In this document: positions 19,381 to 26,961 of the stretch, piece by piece
Layout: each line of letters starts with the position of its first letter
Position numbering within the stretch: the stretch's first letter is position 1
Assembly (NCBI GenBank): GCA_024636955.1
Contig: JAGXGB010000029.1
Span: 1 to 64,000, forward strand
Origin: Bacteroidales bacterium
GTDB taxonomy: Bacteria; Bacteroidota; Bacteroidia; Bacteroidales; Lentimicrobiaceae
Length of the DNA stretch: 64,000 bases
Direction of reading: 5' to 3'
Position numbers and translations under genes: made by a program
The notes under the pieces: generated by a model
What the model was told of the DNA's origin: nothing
The model's input: only the letters and a program-made list of their open reading frames with translations
The model's database searches: none

Positions 19381-19941
19381 TTAATTACCGGGAACGGAGA
19401 ACAGTGTTTGCTCTATAGATGTTTCAAGCTCTTCAACTGTATCATTATTTGAAAATACGAAATCCGCCATCTGCATGCATTTTCCTATATTCTGGTTGTT
19501 AGGATCGGAGGAGTTCATTTCACGACGTTCGTTTTCAATGAAAACATCATAGCTGATGCTGTCGGTTTCAGTTTTTCTTTTGAAGATACGTTCATACCTC
19601 AGTTCAGGCAATGCATCAACAGCAATTAGGTAAAAATTACCCTTTTCCCTGAGTGATGAAACCTCACCCGGTGTGCGGATGCTTTCTATAATACAGTTAT
19701 CGCCACTTAGTATTGCCTCTTCATATAACTGATCAACTATATAGGAAGGAGAATTCTCAGCACGCAGTTTATTAGCCACCGAAACCATGGAATCGCGGTT
19801 TACCTCAAGACCCTGTTCCTTGATCCTTTCAATAAGGAATTGCCTGACAGAGAGATGCCTGAAGTTCTTATGCTCCACAAGATAATCAACAATAGTACCT
19901 TTTCCCGCACCCAATGTGCCTGTTATTCCAATAATTAGCAT
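19381..19941 (-). CDS. P-loop nucleotide kinase-like protein
   Basis: The 186-residue protein starts with IIGITGTLGAGKGT, a Walker A loop, and continues with the LID-less kinase pattern of dephospho-CoA kinase and deoxynucleoside monophosphate kinase relatives (NCIIESIRTPGEV, FYLIAVDALPELRYERI). The RR...SDPNN segment late in the protein resembles archaeal-type AAA_18 kinases. The substrate cannot be named from sequence. A TAnnTTTG box 16-23 bases upstream of the ATG supports this start. It converges with the M16 gene and diverges from the PqqD operon. Confidence 0.75.
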   Translation of the reverse strand: MLIIGITGTLGAGKGTIVDYLVEHKNFRHLSVRQFLIERIKEQGLEVNRDSMVSVANKLRAENSPSYIVDQLYEEAILSGDNCIIESIRTPGEVSSLREKGNFYLIAVDALPELRYERIFKRKTETDSISYDVFIENERREMNSSDPNNQNIGKCMQMADFVFSNNDTVEELETSIEQTLFSVPGN

Positions 19942-20096: not shown

Positions 20097-20345
20097 ATGA
20101 GAATGAATCAAAACATTGCAATAAGTGAAACTGGCTTCTTATTTAATCCGTCAACCGGTGAATCTTTCACCTTAAACCCTGTTGGCTTAAAGCTCATTTC
20201 CTATTATAAGGAGGGACTTAATGATGACGAAATCATTAGTCGCATGCAAGAAGAATATCAGGTTGAAGAACGGGAAATTTCAAGAGACCTGCTCGACTTT
20301 AAGAATGTGTTGAAACATTACTTACTTGTTGATAACAATGACTAA
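20097..20345 (+). CDS. PqqD-like peptide-recognition protein (RRE)
   Basis: The 82-residue protein has the PqqD winged-helix pattern: an N-terminal beta-hairpin with NIAISETGFLFNPSTGESF, then TLNPVGLKLISYYKEGLNDDEI and a final helical segment that includes LLDFKNVLKHY. PqqD-like proteins, or RREs, bind leader peptides of ribosomally made natural products and hand them to tailoring enzymes. Possible starts are GTG 20091, ATG 20097 and ATG 20103; the domain begins after the last, so all are compatible. It overlaps the ATP-grasp gene by eight bases. No radical SAM gene is near, so it does not belong to PQQ synthesis. Confidence 0.8.
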   Translation: MRMNQNIAISETGFLFNPSTGESFTLNPVGLKLISYYKEGLNDDEIISRMQEEYQVEEREISRDLLDFKNVLKHYLLVDNND

Positions 20346-21384
20346 GCCTACACTTAATATCGGCGTAACAGGACTTAATGCAATTGATAGTCCGGGTCCC
20401 GGAGTACCTGTAATCAGGGCTTTGAAAGAGGCTACTTCCTTTAATGTAAGGATTATAGGCCTGGCTTATGAATCGCTTGAACCCGGAATTTACATGCATA
20501 ATCTGGTCGACAAAAGCTACATGATCCCTTACCCTACCGAAGGAACTGATGCATTGCTTAGTCGGCTTGAATACATACATAGTTGTGAGAAACTTGATGT
20601 GATCATTCCCAACTTTGATGCTGAGTTGTATTCATTTATGAAGCTTGAGAAGAAACTGTTGGCTATGGACATACACATGTTCCTTCCTACATTTGAGCAG
20701 TTTGAGGAGCGACATAAAGTTAACCTATCAGATTTTGGTAAAAAATATGGCATTGATGTTCCTTTCGGGAAAGCGATATCTGATCCTCATGATCTGCGTG
20801 ACCTTGAGGATGAGTTTGACTACCCTGTAATGATCAAAGGCAAATGGTATGATGCCTATGTGGCTCATAATATTGAGCAAGCGCGAAGTTACTTCAGCAA
20901 GATAACTGCTAAGTGGGGCTACCCGGTGGTGGTGCAAAAGTTTGTTCAGGGAACTGAATACAATGTGATTGGATTGGGCGATGGCAAAGGAAATATGTTA
21001 GCTGCAGTTCCAATGCGCAAGCAGTTTATCACTGATAAAGGCAAAGCGTGGGCCGGTATCAGCATTGAAGACAAGAAACTTATAGCATTGACTGAAAAAT
21101 TTATCAGCTCCACCAAGTGGAGGGGAGCATTTGAGCTCGAACTGATGAAAACAAGTGATAACATTTATTACCTGATGGAAATTAATCCACGAATACCTGC
21201 ATGGGTTTACCTGGCAGTTGGTGTTGGTCAAAATATACCTGAAGCATTGGTTCACCTTGCCTTAGGAAATGATGTGGCTCCATTGCCGGCTTATGATGTG
21301 GGCAAGCTTTTTATAAGGTATTCATATGACCTTATAGTTGACAGGAGTGAGTTTGAGAATTTATCAGTGAACGGTGAGTTATAA
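20338..21384 (+). CDS. ATP-grasp ligase, carbamoyl-phosphate-synthase-like
   Basis: The 348-residue protein has a pre-ATP-grasp Rossmann-like domain (residues about 5-100, starting NIGVTGLNAIDSPGPG) and an ATP-grasp domain (about 115-310). Visible landmarks are DYPVMIKGKWYDAYVA, VVVQKFVQGTEYNVIG, ELELMKT and LMEINPRIPAWV, the magnesium-binding end. ATP-grasp enzymes activate a carboxylate as acyl-phosphate and join it to an amine or similar nucleophile. The true start is the ATG at 20338, inside the end of the PqqD-like gene. This ATGACTAA overlap implies coupled translation, and a joint function is likely. The substrate is unknown. Confidence 0.85.
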   Translation: MTKPTLNIGVTGLNAIDSPGPGVPVIRALKEATSFNVRIIGLAYESLEPGIYMHNLVDKSYMIPYPTEGTDALLSRLEYIHSCEKLDVIIPNFDAELYSFMKLEKKLLAMDIHMFLPTFEQFEERHKVNLSDFGKKYGIDVPFGKAISDPHDLRDLEDEFDYPVMIKGKWYDAYVAHNIEQARSYFSKITAKWGYPVVVQKFVQGTEYNVIGLGDGKGNMLAAVPMRKQFITDKGKAWAGISIEDKKLIALTEKFISSTKWRGAFELELMKTSDNIYYLMEINPRIPAWVYLAVGVGQNIPEALVHLALGNDVAPLPAYDVGKLFIRYSYDLIVDRSEFENLSVNGEL

Positions 21385-21406
21385 ATGAGTTTAAAGAATA
21401 AACCAA

Positions 21407-22765
21407 ATGGAAAAGAAAGTATACGAACGGCCACATATTATTAAGCTTGACGCGGGCATGCCCGGAAAATTCGGCATGAGGGCTGAAACCCCTGCCATGA
21501 CCCATGTATTTGGTGTGGCGGTGAAGAAGCTTGTTGAAAAGCATGGTTCTCCCTTATTTGTTATTTCGGAGGAAAGCATCAGGCAATCATATCGTAAAGC
21601 ACACAAAGCATTCAGCACCCGATACCCAAATGTACAGTTCGCCTGGTCGTATAAAACCAATTACCTTTCGGCGATATGCAATATATTTCACAGTGAAGGT
21701 TCATGGGCTGAAGTAGTCTCTGGTTTTGAGTATAATAAAGCTATTGCAAATAATGTTGACCCTAAAAAGATAATTTTCAACGGTCCCGGTAAATCAGATG
21801 ATGAGCTTTTAACAGCTGCAAACAATGGCTCACTTATACATATTGACCACCTTGATGAGCTTTATCAACTAATAGATATTGCAGAAAAGGCCACCCAAAG
21901 ACCACGGGTTGCAATCAGGGTAAATATGGATACCGGCATTTATCCTCAATGGGACAGATTTGGATTCAACTATGAAAACGGACAAGCATGGGATGCCATC
22001 AACAAGATCATGCACTCAGGTAAGCTTGACCTTATGGGGTTACATACACATATTGGCACATTCATCATGACTGCCAGTGCTTACGGAATTGCAGCCACTA
22101 AACTTGCTGACCTCGCTATGGGCCTGCAGCAAAAATTCAATCACACCATAAAATACATTGACCTGGGTGGTGGCTTTGCTTCAAAGAACACATTGAAAGG
22201 CTCATACTTACCGGGCAGTGACATAAGTCCGTCGTTTGACGAATATGCTGAAGCAATTTCATCAGCTTTGCTTAATAGTTCCCTGAAACCTGACTCTTTA
22301 CCTCTGCTAATACTTGAAACAGGAAGGGCCTTGGTTGACAGTGCGGCTTTCCTGATTTCAACGGTAATTGCCAATAAGCGGTTATCAAATGGGAAGAGAG
22401 CAACAATTGTAGATGCTGGAGTAAATATCATGTTCACTTCTTTCTGGTATCAGCATCAGATATCACCTGCACAGGGTGCATCACAATATAGGGAAGACAC
22501 TGTTTTATACGGGCCTCTTTGCATGAACATAGATTGTTTACGTGAGAGTGTGAACCTACCGATACTCAATAAAGGAGACCAGGTTGTAATACACAATGTT
22601 GGAGCTTATAACATGACTCAATGGATGCAATTTATAACGCTGAGGCCAAATATTGTTCTCGTTGATTCAGCAGGTGAGGTACAACTCATACGTGAAGCTG
22701 AGAACATGGATAGTATTCAACACCATGAAAAAATGCCTGATAAGCTTGTGATTAATCATCCATAA
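21407..22765 (+). CDS. Diaminopimelate-decarboxylase-like PLP enzyme with leader-like N-terminus
   Basis: The 452-residue protein is a fold III, group IV decarboxylase. PLP would bind Lys83 in WSYKTNYL; LHTHIG and DLGGGFAS lie in the barrel, LETGRALVD precedes the C-terminal beta domain, and GPLCMNIDC corresponds to the cysteine-containing loop that contacts the substrate from the other subunit. The barrel proper begins near residue 35. The preceding residues (VYERPHIIKLDAG, then MPGKFG) contain a YxxPxI pattern like leader peptides recognised by RRE proteins. This gene is 22 bases after the ATP-grasp gene and three bases before the transporter gene. Whether it acts on diaminopimelate or another D- or L-amino acid is open. 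Confidence 0.8.
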   Translation: MEKKVYERPHIIKLDAGMPGKFGMRAETPAMTHVFGVAVKKLVEKHGSPLFVISEESIRQSYRKAHKAFSTRYPNVQFAWSYKTNYLSAICNIFHSEGSWAEVVSGFEYNKAIANNVDPKKIIFNGPGKSDDELLTAANNGSLIHIDHLDELYQLIDIAEKATQRPRVAIRVNMDTGIYPQWDRFGFNYENGQAWDAINKIMHSGKLDLMGLHTHIGTFIMTASAYGIAATKLADLAMGLQQKFNHTIKYIDLGGGFASKNTLKGSYLPGSDISPSFDEYAEAISSALLNSSLKPDSLPLLILETGRALVDSAAFLISTVIANKRLSNGKRATIVDAGVNIMFTSFWYQHQISPAQGASQYREDTVLYGPLCMNIDCLRESVNLPILNKGDQVVIHNVGAYNMTQWMQFITLRPNIVLVDSAGEVQLIREAENMDSIQHHEKMPDKLVINHP

Positions 22766-22768
22766 TAA

Positions 22769-24952
22769 ATGCACAACCGCGATTTAAAAATATTTGCCGC
22801 AGGAATTCTTAACAGCTATACCATGATCTTCTTCTCGAAGAACATGGTATTTGGAATCATACTTGTACTTGTAAGTTTCTTTGACCTGTTTGCCGGTACG
22901 GCAGGAATTCTTGCTGTGATTATAAGTAATGCATTTGCAATGCTGCTGGGCCTGAATAAAAAGAAGATAAGTGAAGGGCTTTACGGATTTAATGCTTTAT
23001 TAGTGGGTTTGGGAATGGGGCTCGCAATTCAACCCTCCCCTGCTTTCTATGTAATCCTCATTTTCATTACCCTAACTACATTGCTCGTGACACTTGCCTT
23101 TGAAGGTGTAATTGGCAAGTATGGACTTTCATATCTTACACTACCATTCCTTTTCTCCATTTGGCTGGCAATCATTGCAACCCGGGGATATTCCAGTTTG
23201 AGTATAGGTGAATCAGGCATTTTTACACTGAACACCATGTACCTTAGAGGAGGTAAGATATTCATGGATATGTACCTGTGGTTTGACGACCTCAACTGGC
23301 CTGTTTATTTAAAGACCTATTTCAAATCATTGGGTGCAATCATTTTTCAATACCATTTGCTTTCAGGTATTTTGATTGCCATCGGATTACTATTATATTC
23401 CAGAATTGCCTTTATATATTCCATAGCAGGTTTTACAGCAGCGTGGCTTTTCTATTTGGTGATAGGTGCTGATATTCATGAACTCGACTATAGCTACATC
23501 GGCTTTAACCATATATTAACAGCAATTGCAATAGGAAGCTTCTTTACAATAGCTTCAGGGTGGTCGCTGATGTGGGTTGTTTTAATCACGCCGTTGGTAT
23601 CAATGATAACCAGTGCCGCTATTCAGGTGTTGGGCATTTATCAGTTGCCCGTTTACTCCTTGCCTTTCAATATGGTGGTGTTGATGTTCCTGTATGCACT
23701 GAAATTCAGGGAACGCATTAATGCAGGGCCTGAACTGGTTTATATTCAACACTACTCACCTGAAAAAAACCTTTATGCCAATGTAAATGCCCATGCCCGT
23801 TTCAGAAACAAGTGGTATATTCCTTTGTCACTTCCTTTCTTTGGATTCAGGCATATAAACCAGGCTCACAACGGTGATGTAACACATAAGGACGAATGGA
23901 AGCATGCCTGGGACTTTATAATAAGAGATGAGAAAGGTAAGGAGTATGAAAATGATGGTACAGCACTTACCGACTATTATGGCTTTAATAAACCAGTTCT
24001 TGCTCCTGCGGATGGATGGATACAGGAAGTAACCGATCACCTTGACGATAACATACCCGGCAGCTACAACATGATACAAAACTGGGGCAATACCATTGTT
24101 ATCAAACATGCTGAACAGCTGTACACTAAGGTTAGTCACTTAAAGAAAGGCAGTGCTCTGTATCCAAAGGGCACGTTTGTACAAAAAGGACAGGTAATAG
24201 CACAAAGTGGAAATTCAGGGCGTTCGCCTTATCCGCATTTACACTTCCAGGTACAGGCTAACCCATACATCGGATCAGCAACAGTAAACTATCCTATTTC
24301 ACAGTATATCTGCATTAATGGAAGTTACAAGTTGAAGATGTATGAGATACCGGGCATAAACGAAGAGGTGTCAAATATTCATCCTGATAATGCACTCGAG
24401 AAATCATTCCGTTTCATACCCGGTCAGGTAATTGAATTTACGCTTAGCGATGGCGGAGAAGGCCATTGGGATGTGTTGACTGACATTTACAATAATACTT
24501 ACTTATACTGTGCTGCCAGTAACTCAACTGCCTGGCTTAAAACGGAAGGCAAACTTTTTTACTTCACACACTTTGAAGGCGATAGAAACAGTATGCTTTT
24601 CTACTTCTTTATCTCTTTATACCAGGTTTCACTGGGTTACTATAAAGACCTTGAGCTAAGGGATGTATTTCCGCCCACTATTTTACCTTACTCAACACTT
24701 AGGATGATACAGGATTTTATTGCACCATTCGTACTTTTCATAAAGCCACAGTATTTGATGACTTTTGCTAAACGGGACGAAGATATTGCAGGAAATACAA
24801 TAACCATTAGAACACAAACACGGTATAGCTTCATGACTAAATCACTGATTGACCTTGAAGCATTTTTAACGGTTACCGATAATGGATTAAAACAGCTGGA
24901 TATCAAGATGCCAAACAAAAAGTATTCCCTGACTTTTATCAAACAGTCATGA
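22769..24952 (+). CDS. Urea transporter fused to M23 peptidase
   Basis: The 727-residue protein begins with about ten membrane helices (residues 1-310) with the urea-transporter signatures FDLFAGTAGILAVIISNAF and ISEGLYGFNALLVGLGMG, repeated in part in the second half (YIGFNHILTAIAIGSFF). Residues about 370-505 form a LytM/M23 domain: HAWDF (His379, Asp382), GNTIVIKH, then PHLHFQV with His490 and His492. The remaining 220 residues are a beta-rich region I do not recognise. UT proteins are channels for urea and similar small amides; M23 enzymes cut peptide cross-links or glycine-rich peptides. It is co-transcribed with the decarboxylase, so a shared product is likely. Confidence 0.85.
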   Translation: MHNRDLKIFAAGILNSYTMIFFSKNMVFGIILVLVSFFDLFAGTAGILAVIISNAFAMLLGLNKKKISEGLYGFNALLVGLGMGLAIQPSPAFYVILIFITLTTLLVTLAFEGVIGKYGLSYLTLPFLFSIWLAIIATRGYSSLSIGESGIFTLNTMYLRGGKIFMDMYLWFDDLNWPVYLKTYFKSLGAIIFQYHLLSGILIAIGLLLYSRIAFIYSIAGFTAAWLFYLVIGADIHELDYSYIGFNHILTAIAIGSFFTIASGWSLMWVVLITPLVSMITSAAIQVLGIYQLPVYSLPFNMVVLMFLYALKFRERINAGPELVYIQHYSPEKNLYANVNAHARFRNKWYIPLSLPFFGFRHINQAHNGDVTHKDEWKHAWDFIIRDEKGKEYENDGTALTDYYGFNKPVLAPADGWIQEVTDHLDDNIPGSYNMIQNWGNTIVIKHAEQLYTKVSHLKKGSALYPKGTFVQKGQVIAQSGNSGRSPYPHLHFQVQANPYIGSATVNYPISQYICINGSYKLKMYEIPGINEEVSNIHPDNALEKSFRFIPGQVIEFTLSDGGEGHWDVLTDIYNNTYLYCAASNSTAWLKTEGKLFYFTHFEGDRNSMLFYFFISLYQVSLGYYKDLELRDVFPPTILPYSTLRMIQDFIAPFVLFIKPQYLMTFAKRDEDIAGNTITIRTQTRYSFMTKSLIDLEAFLTVTDNGLKQLDIKMPNKKYSLTFIKQS

Positions 24953-24994
24953 TGTTTATTGATATCCAACTATAACTACTTAGATGACAATACA

Positions 24995-26302
24995 ATGAGA
25001 TACATTCTTTCCATAATACTTACACTCATCCTTTTTCATCCAGTGAGATCGCAGACTGATTATGAGGCAGAAACGCTGCGACTTTATTACGAACAGAAAT
25101 GGGATAGTTTACTAATGGTGGGTGAAAAAGCCCTCGCAGAAGGACATGATTATTTCTACATGAATTTGCGAACCTGAGCTGCTGCCTATCATCTTGGTAA
25201 ATACTTCACTTCAACTAAGTATCTGGAAGATGCACATGCTCAGGATAAAAATGACACGTATGCGCTTGAGATGCTGTTTTACTCATACGTCAATACGGGC
25301 AGAACTGCACACGCAGCACTTATTACAAAATACATGGAACCTACATGGGGAAACGCTTTAATGAAAACTTATTTGTTTCCCTCGATATATGTTGAGGCCG
25401 GACCCGTAATCATACCATCAATTAAACCAGTAAGGCGCATTTTAAAGTCTTCTGATAATTTGTTTAGCGAGAGGTATAAAGAACTTGATGCATTTTACTT
25501 ACTCACCGGATGGAAGCAACCTATAGGCAGAAGAGTACAACTAAACACAGCCGTTAGTTATATCTCACTTAATAAAAGCCGGGAAGTCAATATCAGGTAC
25601 GTTGACTCACTACAAGGAGATTTTCAGGTTGAGCAGCCTGAACTTTACCTTTCTGCATCTGTCACGTTAAATAACCGGTTTGCGGTCGCACCGGCAATCC
25701 GGTATGCAAAAACCAGGGTCACTGAGCCAATAATTTCAAATGATTCAATCACAAACCTGTATCTGGGAAATCCTATTGGCGGAAGCTATAATAATATAAT
25801 AGCGGGTGGAGAATTGACTTACTCAGGTAACTATTTCAAGGCAACAATGGGTGCCTGGCATCTTGCAGTTAACAAAACAAGCTCCGTACAATTAGCATCA
25901 TCACTTACACTTTACCCAACCGGCAATTTGAATCTGTATTCAATTACAGGTGTTAACTGGAAATCTGAGCGCACTTCAAAACCAATATTTGGTAGTCAAA
26001 CTGTTGGTTTCAGGATATTCGACAGAACATGGCTGGAATTGTCGGTTACTGCAGGGAACCTGGCAGGAACAATTGAACTGAACGGACAGTTGCTGAATAA
26101 TCAGGTGGTGGAATCAAACTACCGACTTGCCTCACTTCTTATCTTTGATATAAACCCTTCGTTTAGAATTATTGTCCGTTACCAGTATCTACAGAATAAA
26201 GCATCACTGTATGTATTAGATAATGAGTATGTTTTGAACAAGATTAATTACAATTACAACAAGCATATAATTACAGGAGGTATCACATGGAATATACTAT
26301 AG
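24995..26302 (+). pseudogene. TPR plus beta-barrel outer membrane protein, interrupted by an in-frame TGA
   Basis: Translation from ATG 24995 gives a signal peptide (ending HPVRSQ) and one TPR-like helical pair, then stops at TGA 25175-25177, codon 61. The same frame continues without a gap (AAAYHLGKYFTSTKYLEDA) to 26302. The second part has another TPR pair and about twelve amphipathic beta strands, ending in GGITWNIL, a typical outer-membrane barrel terminus. The stop lies where TPR repeats usually have a glycine (LRxGxAxYxLG), so a GGA-to-TGA change would explain it. UGA is a normal stop elsewhere here. Either the gene is broken or the base is an error. It resembles YaiO-type barrels in layout. 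Confidence 0.75.
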
Positions 26303-26961
26303 ACAGGATCGTACTATTCACCATCAAAAGATTGGCAAAATCATTCGGGTTATTGTCAATGCATACAATTCTAATAGTGTTTTTACTTATTGGAACTGAA
26401 GTGACAGCGCAAAATAACAATCTCACTAAAGCATTTTCAGAAAGCTACATACTTGAAACCAAGGGTGATTATTCACGATCAGCTGAAACCATTAAAAAAG
26501 TATACAGTGCTGATTCTTATGAAATGAATCTCAGGCTGGGATGGTTGTATTACCTGGGTAAGAACTATAAAGAGTCTGTTAACTACTACAATAAAGCAAT
26601 TGTGTTGCTCCCTTTATCCATTGAAGCTAAGTTGGGTTTTGCATATCCGGCATACGCACTGGGCAATATTGAAGGAGTGATAAAGAATTATAAGGAAATA
26701 CTAAAAATTGACCCTGTTAACTACTACGGCAATTATCGGCTTGGCTCTTTATATTATGAACGCAAGGACTATCAGAATGCCCACAATCATTTCGATAAAA
26801 TCATTAACCTCTACCCATTTGATTATGATGCTATCATCATGTCAGCATGGACTTATTATCGACTGGGGAATTACCGCGAGGCGAAAGTACTCTTCAACAA
26901 GGCTCTGCTAAACAGGCCAAGTGATAGTTCGGCATTAGAGGGATTGGGTTTAATAAAGTAA
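26287..26961 (+). CDS. Exported TPR protein
   Basis: The 224-residue protein has a hydrophobic leader ending in GTEVTAQ and about five tetratricopeptide repeats with the W/L/G/Y...A/P spacing (LGWLYYLGKNYKESVNYYNKA and similar). ATG 26287 overlaps the preceding barrel gene by 16 bases; ATG 26359 (MHTILIV) would give a shorter and more usual signal peptide. TPR proteins scaffold protein complexes, and this one probably works in the periplasm with the barrel protein. It ends the plus-strand run that started with the PqqD-like gene. Confidence 0.78.
   Translation: MEYTIDRIVLFTIKRLAKSFGLLSMHTILIVFLLIGTEVTAQNNNLTKAFSESYILETKGDYSRSAETIKKVYSADSYEMNLRLGWLYYLGKNYKESVNYYNKAIVLLPLSIEAKLGFAYPAYALGNIEGVIKNYKEILKIDPVNYYGNYRLGSLYYERKDYQNAHNHFDKIINLYPFDYDAIIMSAWTYYRLGNYREAKVLFNKALLNRPSDSSALEGLGLIK

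Follow-up and report, generated by a model that had tools for sequence, protein, structure and literature searches.

RiPP recognition elements (RREs; RiPP, ribosomally synthesized and post-translationally modified peptide) are described as adaptors that act on small precursor peptides. What does a stand-alone RRE of the PqqD family recognize when the genes around it encode metabolic and envelope proteins? This question is raised by a six-gene unit in a 64,000-nucleotide stretch of a Lentimicrobiaceae genome (Bacteroidales; contig JAGXGB010000029.1, positions 1 to 64,000; hereafter the window). The unit encodes the PqqD-like protein, an ATP-grasp ligase, an alanine-racemase-fold pyridoxal phosphate (PLP) decarboxylase (Dec), a urea-transporter-fold channel joined to an M23 metallopeptidase (UT-M23), a putative outer-membrane barrel protein and a TPR protein. 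The evidence points to an RRE that recognizes a leader built into a metabolic enzyme, namely Dec. If this is true, RRE-guided tailoring extends beyond RiPPs, PqqD matches that lack a precursor gene cease to be orphans, and the N-termini of enzymes become a place to seek RRE ligands.

The homology of Dec to other decarboxylases begins at residue 29-35, leaving an N-terminal tail outside it. This tail is predicted to be disordered (pLDDT of 40-57 over residues 1-30, compared with a mean of 86.8 for the whole model), yet it contains invariant residues. Its pattern, K-K-x-[Y/F]-E-R-P-x-I-x-K...K-F-G, resembles the lasso leader motif K-x-YxxPxL that is bound by stand-alone RREs. Across 157 non-redundant loci, Pro9 was present in all, Glu7 in 155 and Lys3 in 151, and residue 6 was either Tyr (119) or Phe (38). 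Among the 87 Tyr-type tails counted at first, 85 had the same distance between motif and enzyme body, and in the remaining two it was +2. A second conserved block follows, with Lys21 in 157/157 and Gly23 in 156/157 sequences. When the tail Tyr is counted as -17, as the leader Tyr is in BsfA (PMC10368454), Lys21 takes position -2 and Gly23 position +1. Lasso enzymes act at this point, where lasso leaders have positions -2, -1 and +1. Besides Dec, we found no other recurrent carrier of a leader-type motif. The tail of a LysA protein (locus L157) lacked the motif, which is a weak control, as of five control loci only this one yielded the correct reading frame.

In profile searches against the PDB, the PqqD protein was closest to the lasso RREs TbiB1 (5v1u) and TfuB1 (6jx3), followed by 9x90 and LppB (9x8z). 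The stand-alone RREs of lasso and LPP systems bind their leaders via K-x-[Y/W]xxPx[L/V]; the leader Tyr is pocketed and hydrogen-bonded to an Asp (Asp70 in LppB), a Phe divides the groove, and an Asn fixes a kink (PMC13381572). An ungapped alignment of LppB with the window protein paired N33 with N27, C39 with L33, Y60 with Y54, D70 with D64, F74 with F68 and M78 with L72. These pocket positions are strongly conserved in the family except for 64, and position 33 is I or L. The profile match and the pocket residues thus indicate a winged-helix fold with a conserved leader pocket of the kind described for LppB (PMC13381572). A cognate sequence of the form [Y/W/F]xxPx[L/I/V] is located on the N-terminus of Dec, where it covaries with the pocket.

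This covariation was complete. In the first 112 loci, Tyr6 of Dec was accompanied by Asp64 (79) or Asn64 (7) in PqqD, and Phe6 by Tyr, Ser, His, Ala or Phe (26), with no exceptions. We fetched 47 more non-redundant pairs after the rule had been seen, as an out-of-sample test; the rule held in every one, giving 0 exceptions over the 157 loci. Among 30,968 pairs of Dec and PqqD alignment columns, Dec6-PqqD64 ranked first (mutual information with average product correction, z 14), followed by PqqD64-Dec20 and PqqD53-Dec4, and the Dec partners of these top three pairs all lie in the short tail. PqqD53 and Dec4 showed charge compensation, like charges occurring in only 1 of the 157 loci. On the Dec tree, both residue-6 and residue-64 traits change five times, and 5/5 parsimony changes fall on shared branches; an earlier count of 3/3 was matched by 0 of 100,000 random placements. 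The rule even extended to a metagenome-assembled genome in which Dec (L125) lies outside the operon, with PqqD and the ATP-grasp gene on another contig (L166): the motif is kept and still matches the RRE residue. From the leader motif on Dec and its complete covariation with a known pocket, we infer that the PqqD RRE very probably docks on the N-terminal tail of Dec.

The genes concerned travel together. A UT-M23 search over 296 Bacteroidota genomes matched 31, some via the M23 domain alone. In all 26 loci fetched around a UT-M23 match in other Bacteroidota genomes, the PqqD, ATP-grasp, Dec and UT-M23 genes lay on one strand in the same order, with UT and M23 as separate neighbouring frames in one locus. 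The TPR gene was found in nearly all 26, and the barrel gene was usual, its position variable. Scanning the Dec alignment against 84,980 species genomes returned at least 584 relatives; among the best 80, nearly every sufficiently long contig had the same gene order. Because the order recurs in the 26 loci and in nearly all of these 80 further loci, the six-gene set is a genuine unit, its arrangement far from chance. Among 149 sampled genomes of the window's order, Dec was present in 61, the ATP-grasp enzyme in 62, UT-M23 in 62 and all three in 60. Dec and UT-M23 occurred together in 60 genomes, singly in 1 and 2, and were both absent from 86 (Fisher p = 4e-38); all three exceptions to the all-or-none occurrence of the three genes lie at contig ends. 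An earlier note on this DNA had proposed that conserved synteny would support a system, and that homologues occurring mostly alone, or PqqD proteins unlinked to ATP-grasp or PLP genes, would speak against one. Synteny was found phylum-wide, and neither of the opposing patterns appeared. Dec occurred in 34 of 371 good Bacteroidota genomes (about 9% of those sampled); within the window's order, the unit is carried by about 41% of the genomes sampled. One genome (G361, contigs C234 and C56) has two Dec/ATP-grasp/UT-M23 copies.

The six frames of the window (20097-26961, all on the + strand) have the starts and stops given in the earlier note, with junctions, in order, of an 8-base overlap, gaps of 22, 3 and 42 bases, and a 16-base overlap. 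Its domain calls for PqqD, ATP-grasp, PLP decarboxylase, UT with M23 and TPR agree with Pfam-type matches (Table 1). Its description held except that it missed a stop in the barrel gene: an in-frame TGA at 25175-25177 interrupts that frame. At this position, Gly is found in all seven relatives of the alignment, the two genomes of the same genus among them, suggesting that the TGA in this assembly is either a point mutation or a sequence or assembly error. The barrel protein matched no Pfam family, and that of a relative gave a weak TPR match. Promoter and terminator scans of the unit returned sites no more numerous than in shuffled sequence.

Table 1. Coordinates of the genes, domains and sites discussed (window positions).
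Feature	Position	Strand	Remarks
PqqD-family stand-alone RRE, 82 aa	20097..20345	+	Pfam PqqD, 35 bits
PqqD Glu53 codon	20253..20255	+	Neighbour of Tyr54, a conserved pocket residue; charge complements that of Dec residue 4
PqqD Asp64 codon	20286..20288	+	Equivalent to LppB Asp70 (hydrogen bond to leader Tyr) by ungapped alignment; complete covariation with Dec residue 6
ATP-grasp ligase, 348 aa, CPSase-like/PRK12767 type	20338..21384	+	PF15632/PF02655; invariant ATP-grasp residues ELE...EINPR
Dec, alanine-racemase-fold PLP decarboxylase, 452 aa	21407..22765	+	Orn/DAP/Arg decarboxylase N and C domains
Dec N-terminal tail, residues 1-34	21407..21508	+	Outside decarboxylase homology; predicted disordered
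Putative leader-like RRE docking motif KKVYERPHIIK, Dec residues 3-13	21413..21445	+	Consensus K-x-x-[Y/F]-E-[R/K]-P-x-[I/V/L]-x-[K/R]
Dec Lys21-Phe22-Gly23 block	21467..21475	+	Candidate ATP-grasp site; family form K-[F/Y]-G
UT-M23, 727 aa	22769..24952	+	Urea-transporter-fold channel (UT, 190 bits), M23 metallopeptidase (Peptidase_M23, 59 bits), C-terminal beta-rich domain
M23 domain	23846..24268	+	H373, D382, H457, H490 and H492 invariant in alignment, 22/22 each
Barrel gene	24995..26302	+	Signal peptide, TPR-like segment, C-terminal part read as outer-membrane beta-barrel; signal peptide and barrel by sequence inspection
TPR protein	26287..26961	+	TPR domain match; likely signal peptide (sequence inspection); adjacent in most loci

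How might docking on Dec be used? Residues 3-13 of Dec would be seated in the RRE groove, and the RRE would hand the Lys21-Phe-Gly block to the ATP-grasp enzyme, the product of the gene that overlaps its own. The ATP-grasp enzyme would then acylate Lys21, with Dec in the role of a RiPP precursor peptide. Acylated Dec would be activated, or armed for reaction on a conjugated amino acid, and UT-M23, together with the TPR and barrel proteins, would work at the envelope, either on the product or in its service. Modifying enzymes may require the part of a leader that lies beyond the RRE contact (PMC13381572), and the part of the Dec tail past the predicted contact holds Lys21 and Gly23. The ATP-grasp enzyme, of CPSase-like type, has intact motifs; its best matches are PRK12767 and ATPgrasp_Ter, and it has no close relative among solved structures. 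We put RRE-guided acylation of Lys21 forward tentatively, as a reading of sequence patterns. Modification of the decarboxylase itself had been one suggestion of the earlier note. That suggestion gained strong indirect support from a docking motif on Dec whose key residue covaries completely with the pocket; the modification chemistry is something we only infer.

Several points weigh against this reading of docking followed by Lys21 acylation. The invariant Lys21 and Gly23 could serve the folding or catalysis of Dec. We know of no enzyme of this ATP-grasp subgroup that acts on a protein side chain. The covariation rests on only five inferred events, and its strength therefore comes from its completeness, its match to a crystal-structure contact and its out-of-sample success. 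PqqD position 64 also covaries strongly with residue 103 of the ATP-grasp enzyme (112 loci), perhaps as a clade signal or through an RRE-ligase contact.

A close rival, which we rate as possible but less probable, is that docking serves only as a scaffold. PqqD would tie the ATP-grasp enzyme to Dec, and a small amide made by the ligase would be passed on for decarboxylation to an N-acyl amine or diamine, with no protein modified. All of the docking evidence applies equally to this arrangement, and the identity of Dec favours it. Invariant K83, H213, G254-256, E304, R307 and C372, together with the fold match, place Dec among the alanine-racemase-fold PLP decarboxylases. By both profile and fold, its nearest characterized relative is the N-citrylornithine decarboxylase FslC/FigC, which decarboxylates a side-chain-acylated ornithine: PDB 7kh2 was the best match by profile (298 bits) and by fold (32% identity, TM-score 0.80-0.89). 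The two share the fold, a GP-x-CM-x-x-D loop and a GAYN......FI.L[K/R]P segment. In FigC, the acidic residue that binds the substrate amine next to the catalytic Cys is replaced by Met, and the citryl group is bound by Thr327 and Tyr331 of the specificity helix, His357 and Arg387 (PMC7857480). According to the alignment, Dec has the same Met (Met373), at the position that is acidic and amine-binding in ornithine decarboxylase, arginine decarboxylase and LysA, and the same Thr/Tyr pair (Thr344/Tyr348). It has Ile375 and Gln405, both invariant, instead of the citrate-binding His357 and Arg387. Because the Met and the Thr/Tyr pair are shared and the His and Arg are replaced, a substrate side chain that is neither a free amine nor citrylated fits Dec. 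Pairs of a ligase and a decarboxylase are known, FslA with FslC and, reportedly, BtrJ with BtrK, whose fold match to Dec we computed. What the scaffold leaves unexplained is the near-invariance of Lys21 and Gly23, beyond the stretch in contact with the RRE. Lysine is a natural acceptor for an acyl-phosphate made by ATP-grasp enzymes; for this reason, and because the K-F-G block lies past the RRE contact, we favour acylation of Lys21 over a scaffold.

Dec might alternatively have a carrier arm in cis, an arrangement that we regard as unlikely. The RRE would clamp the tail, the ATP-grasp enzyme would load an amino acid on Lys21 via its side-chain carboxylate, and the FigC-like site would decarboxylate the tethered group, in analogy with BtrJ and BtrK on an acyl carrier protein. 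These are reportedly paired enzymes of butirosin biosynthesis, the decarboxylase acting on a tethered amino acid. The likeness lies in the pairing of an ATP-grasp ligase with an alanine-racemase-fold decarboxylase, BtrK being among the fold matches of Dec. The present unit differs in having an RRE and no acyl carrier protein. To our knowledge, no described system resembles such a pathway, guided by an RRE, with its carrier in cis and a link to an envelope channel-peptidase.

We consider improbable a conventional RiPP-like pathway with its precursor encoded elsewhere, in which the leader copy on Dec would recruit it as a tailoring enzyme or regulate the RRE. The lasso-type RRE and the leader-type motif are in its favour. 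However, a search of the intergenic gaps and of every open reading frame (ORF) of 20-129 aa, over a span reaching about 4 kb upstream of PqqD and 11 kb downstream, gave no conserved small ORF around the unit. Neither a leader peptidase nor a cyclase was found as a partner, and Dec, the only motif carrier found, tracks the pocket completely. Recurrent small-ORF families near the unit were rejected as precursors, being antisense or clade-local noise. The unit contains none of the maturases that define RiPP classes (B2 peptidase with cyclase, YcaO, radical SAM). With no precursor peptide found nearby and no maturase, it does not qualify as a RiPP cluster. The ATP-grasp enzyme likewise falls outside the graspetide ligases, given its CPSase-like best matches and the missing precursor.

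The unit nonetheless shares much with the stand-alone RRE-leader pairs of lasso and LPP systems (TbiB1, TfuB1, PbaB1, LppB): the RRE fold, the pocket residues, the leader motif, the Asp that holds the leader Tyr, and a Gly that lines up with core residue +1. Unlike in those systems, a 452-aa enzyme bears the leader-like motif as its N-terminus, the first motif position is Tyr/Phe rather than Tyr/Trp, the RRE partner is an ATP-grasp ligase, and precursor, B2 peptidase and cyclase are absent from the unit. Borosins also join a recognition sequence and an enzyme in one chain, the enzyme being fused to its own substrate peptide. The borosin enzyme is an N-methyltransferase that modifies its own tail, and the system is not known to have an RRE of the PqqD kind. 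We found no description of the gene set in the open-licence papers searched. Each part comes from a known family, the whole set is undescribed, and the pairing of an RRE with an enzyme-borne leader is at least a new variant.

It is very improbable that Dec is a decarboxylase of lysine biosynthesis or polyamine metabolism and the unit ordinary metabolism. In favour of this reading, the window genome has no LysA above the cut-off, and fewer of the genomes with Dec (19/61) than of those without it (47/88) have canonical LysA. However, Dec scored 226 bits against the LysA model TIGR01048 (cut-off, 298), lacks the specificity-helix Arg, and reads CMNID, with Met373 after Cys372, at a site that is acidic in LysA. 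In those 19 genomes, Dec is found alongside canonical LysA, and Dec is therefore not simply LysA; it is also tied to RRE and envelope genes. A rhizoferrin-type siderophore or metallophore pathway is the least credible reading, for although FslC/FigC is the closest characterized decarboxylase and a gene for an HMA-AraC regulator lies upstream in about 31 loci, Dec has Ile375 and Gln405 for the citrate-binding residues, the HMA cysteines are not conserved, and neither a TonB receptor nor an NRPS-independent siderophore (NIS) synthetase was recognized in the unit. Dec scored 252 bits against the NCBIfam FslC model (NF041039; cut-off, 500), and it differs from FslC in its leader-like tail and in having an ATP-grasp enzyme, not a NIS synthetase, as partner.

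The AlphaFold model of UT-M23 (pLDDT 87.9) matched dvUT (3k3g) first in Foldseek, followed by the LytM domains of DipM, Csd2 and ShyA. Profile, model and fold match all assign it to the UT fold, and it shares LPxxTxPF-like repeats with the urea transporters dvUT, UT-A and UT-B. It differs from them in its fusion to M23 and at residue 190, the position of dvUT Glu187 (Gln in UT-A), which we take to be urea-coordinating. This residue was Ala, Leu or another non-E/Q residue, with Glu or Gln in 0 of 22 sequences. Urea therefore need not be the substrate, and UT-M23 should not be called a urea channel. The M23 domain has the zinc-binding and catalytic His, Asp, His and HxH residues, with a His-Asp spacing of 9 compared with the usual 4, and is a putative peptidoglycan hydrolase. 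The termini of urea transporters are usually cytoplasmic; in a positive-inside count of UT-M23, the loop that immediately precedes M23 had the most K/R. We dropped a possible disulfide in the M23 domain as a sign of periplasmic location, as the second Cys is not conserved.

The genes inserted between Dec and UT-M23 vary between loci. In several Bacteroidales, the insertion is a gene of the IF-2B family (eIF2B/MtnA-like; L059:11364-12305, similar in L074, L076, L078 and L094); elsewhere, it is a histidine kinase with a class I aminotransferase (L065:11481-14440, a similar pair in L082). Given this variation, the inserted genes were rejected as fixed extra partners and are accessories. A gene for a small P-loop kinase adjoins the unit in the window (19381-19941, - strand), and the protein weakly matched a model for anti-phage dCTP deaminases (50 bits against a cut-off of 400). 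The upstream genes also vary, encoding HMA-AraC, DUF2202-like and type IX secretion/FlgD-tail proteins and acetyltransferases (the DUF2202 and acetyltransferase names by sequence inspection). The gene combining HMA with an AraC-type regulator lies just upstream of PqqD (L096:7797-8381 and similar), mostly on the same strand, and possibly regulates the unit. In one set of lineages, the gene directly upstream of PqqD encodes an FG-GAP/FlgD-Ig protein with a type IX secretion tail (L046:3611-4444, with a matching gene in several L04x-L05x loci).

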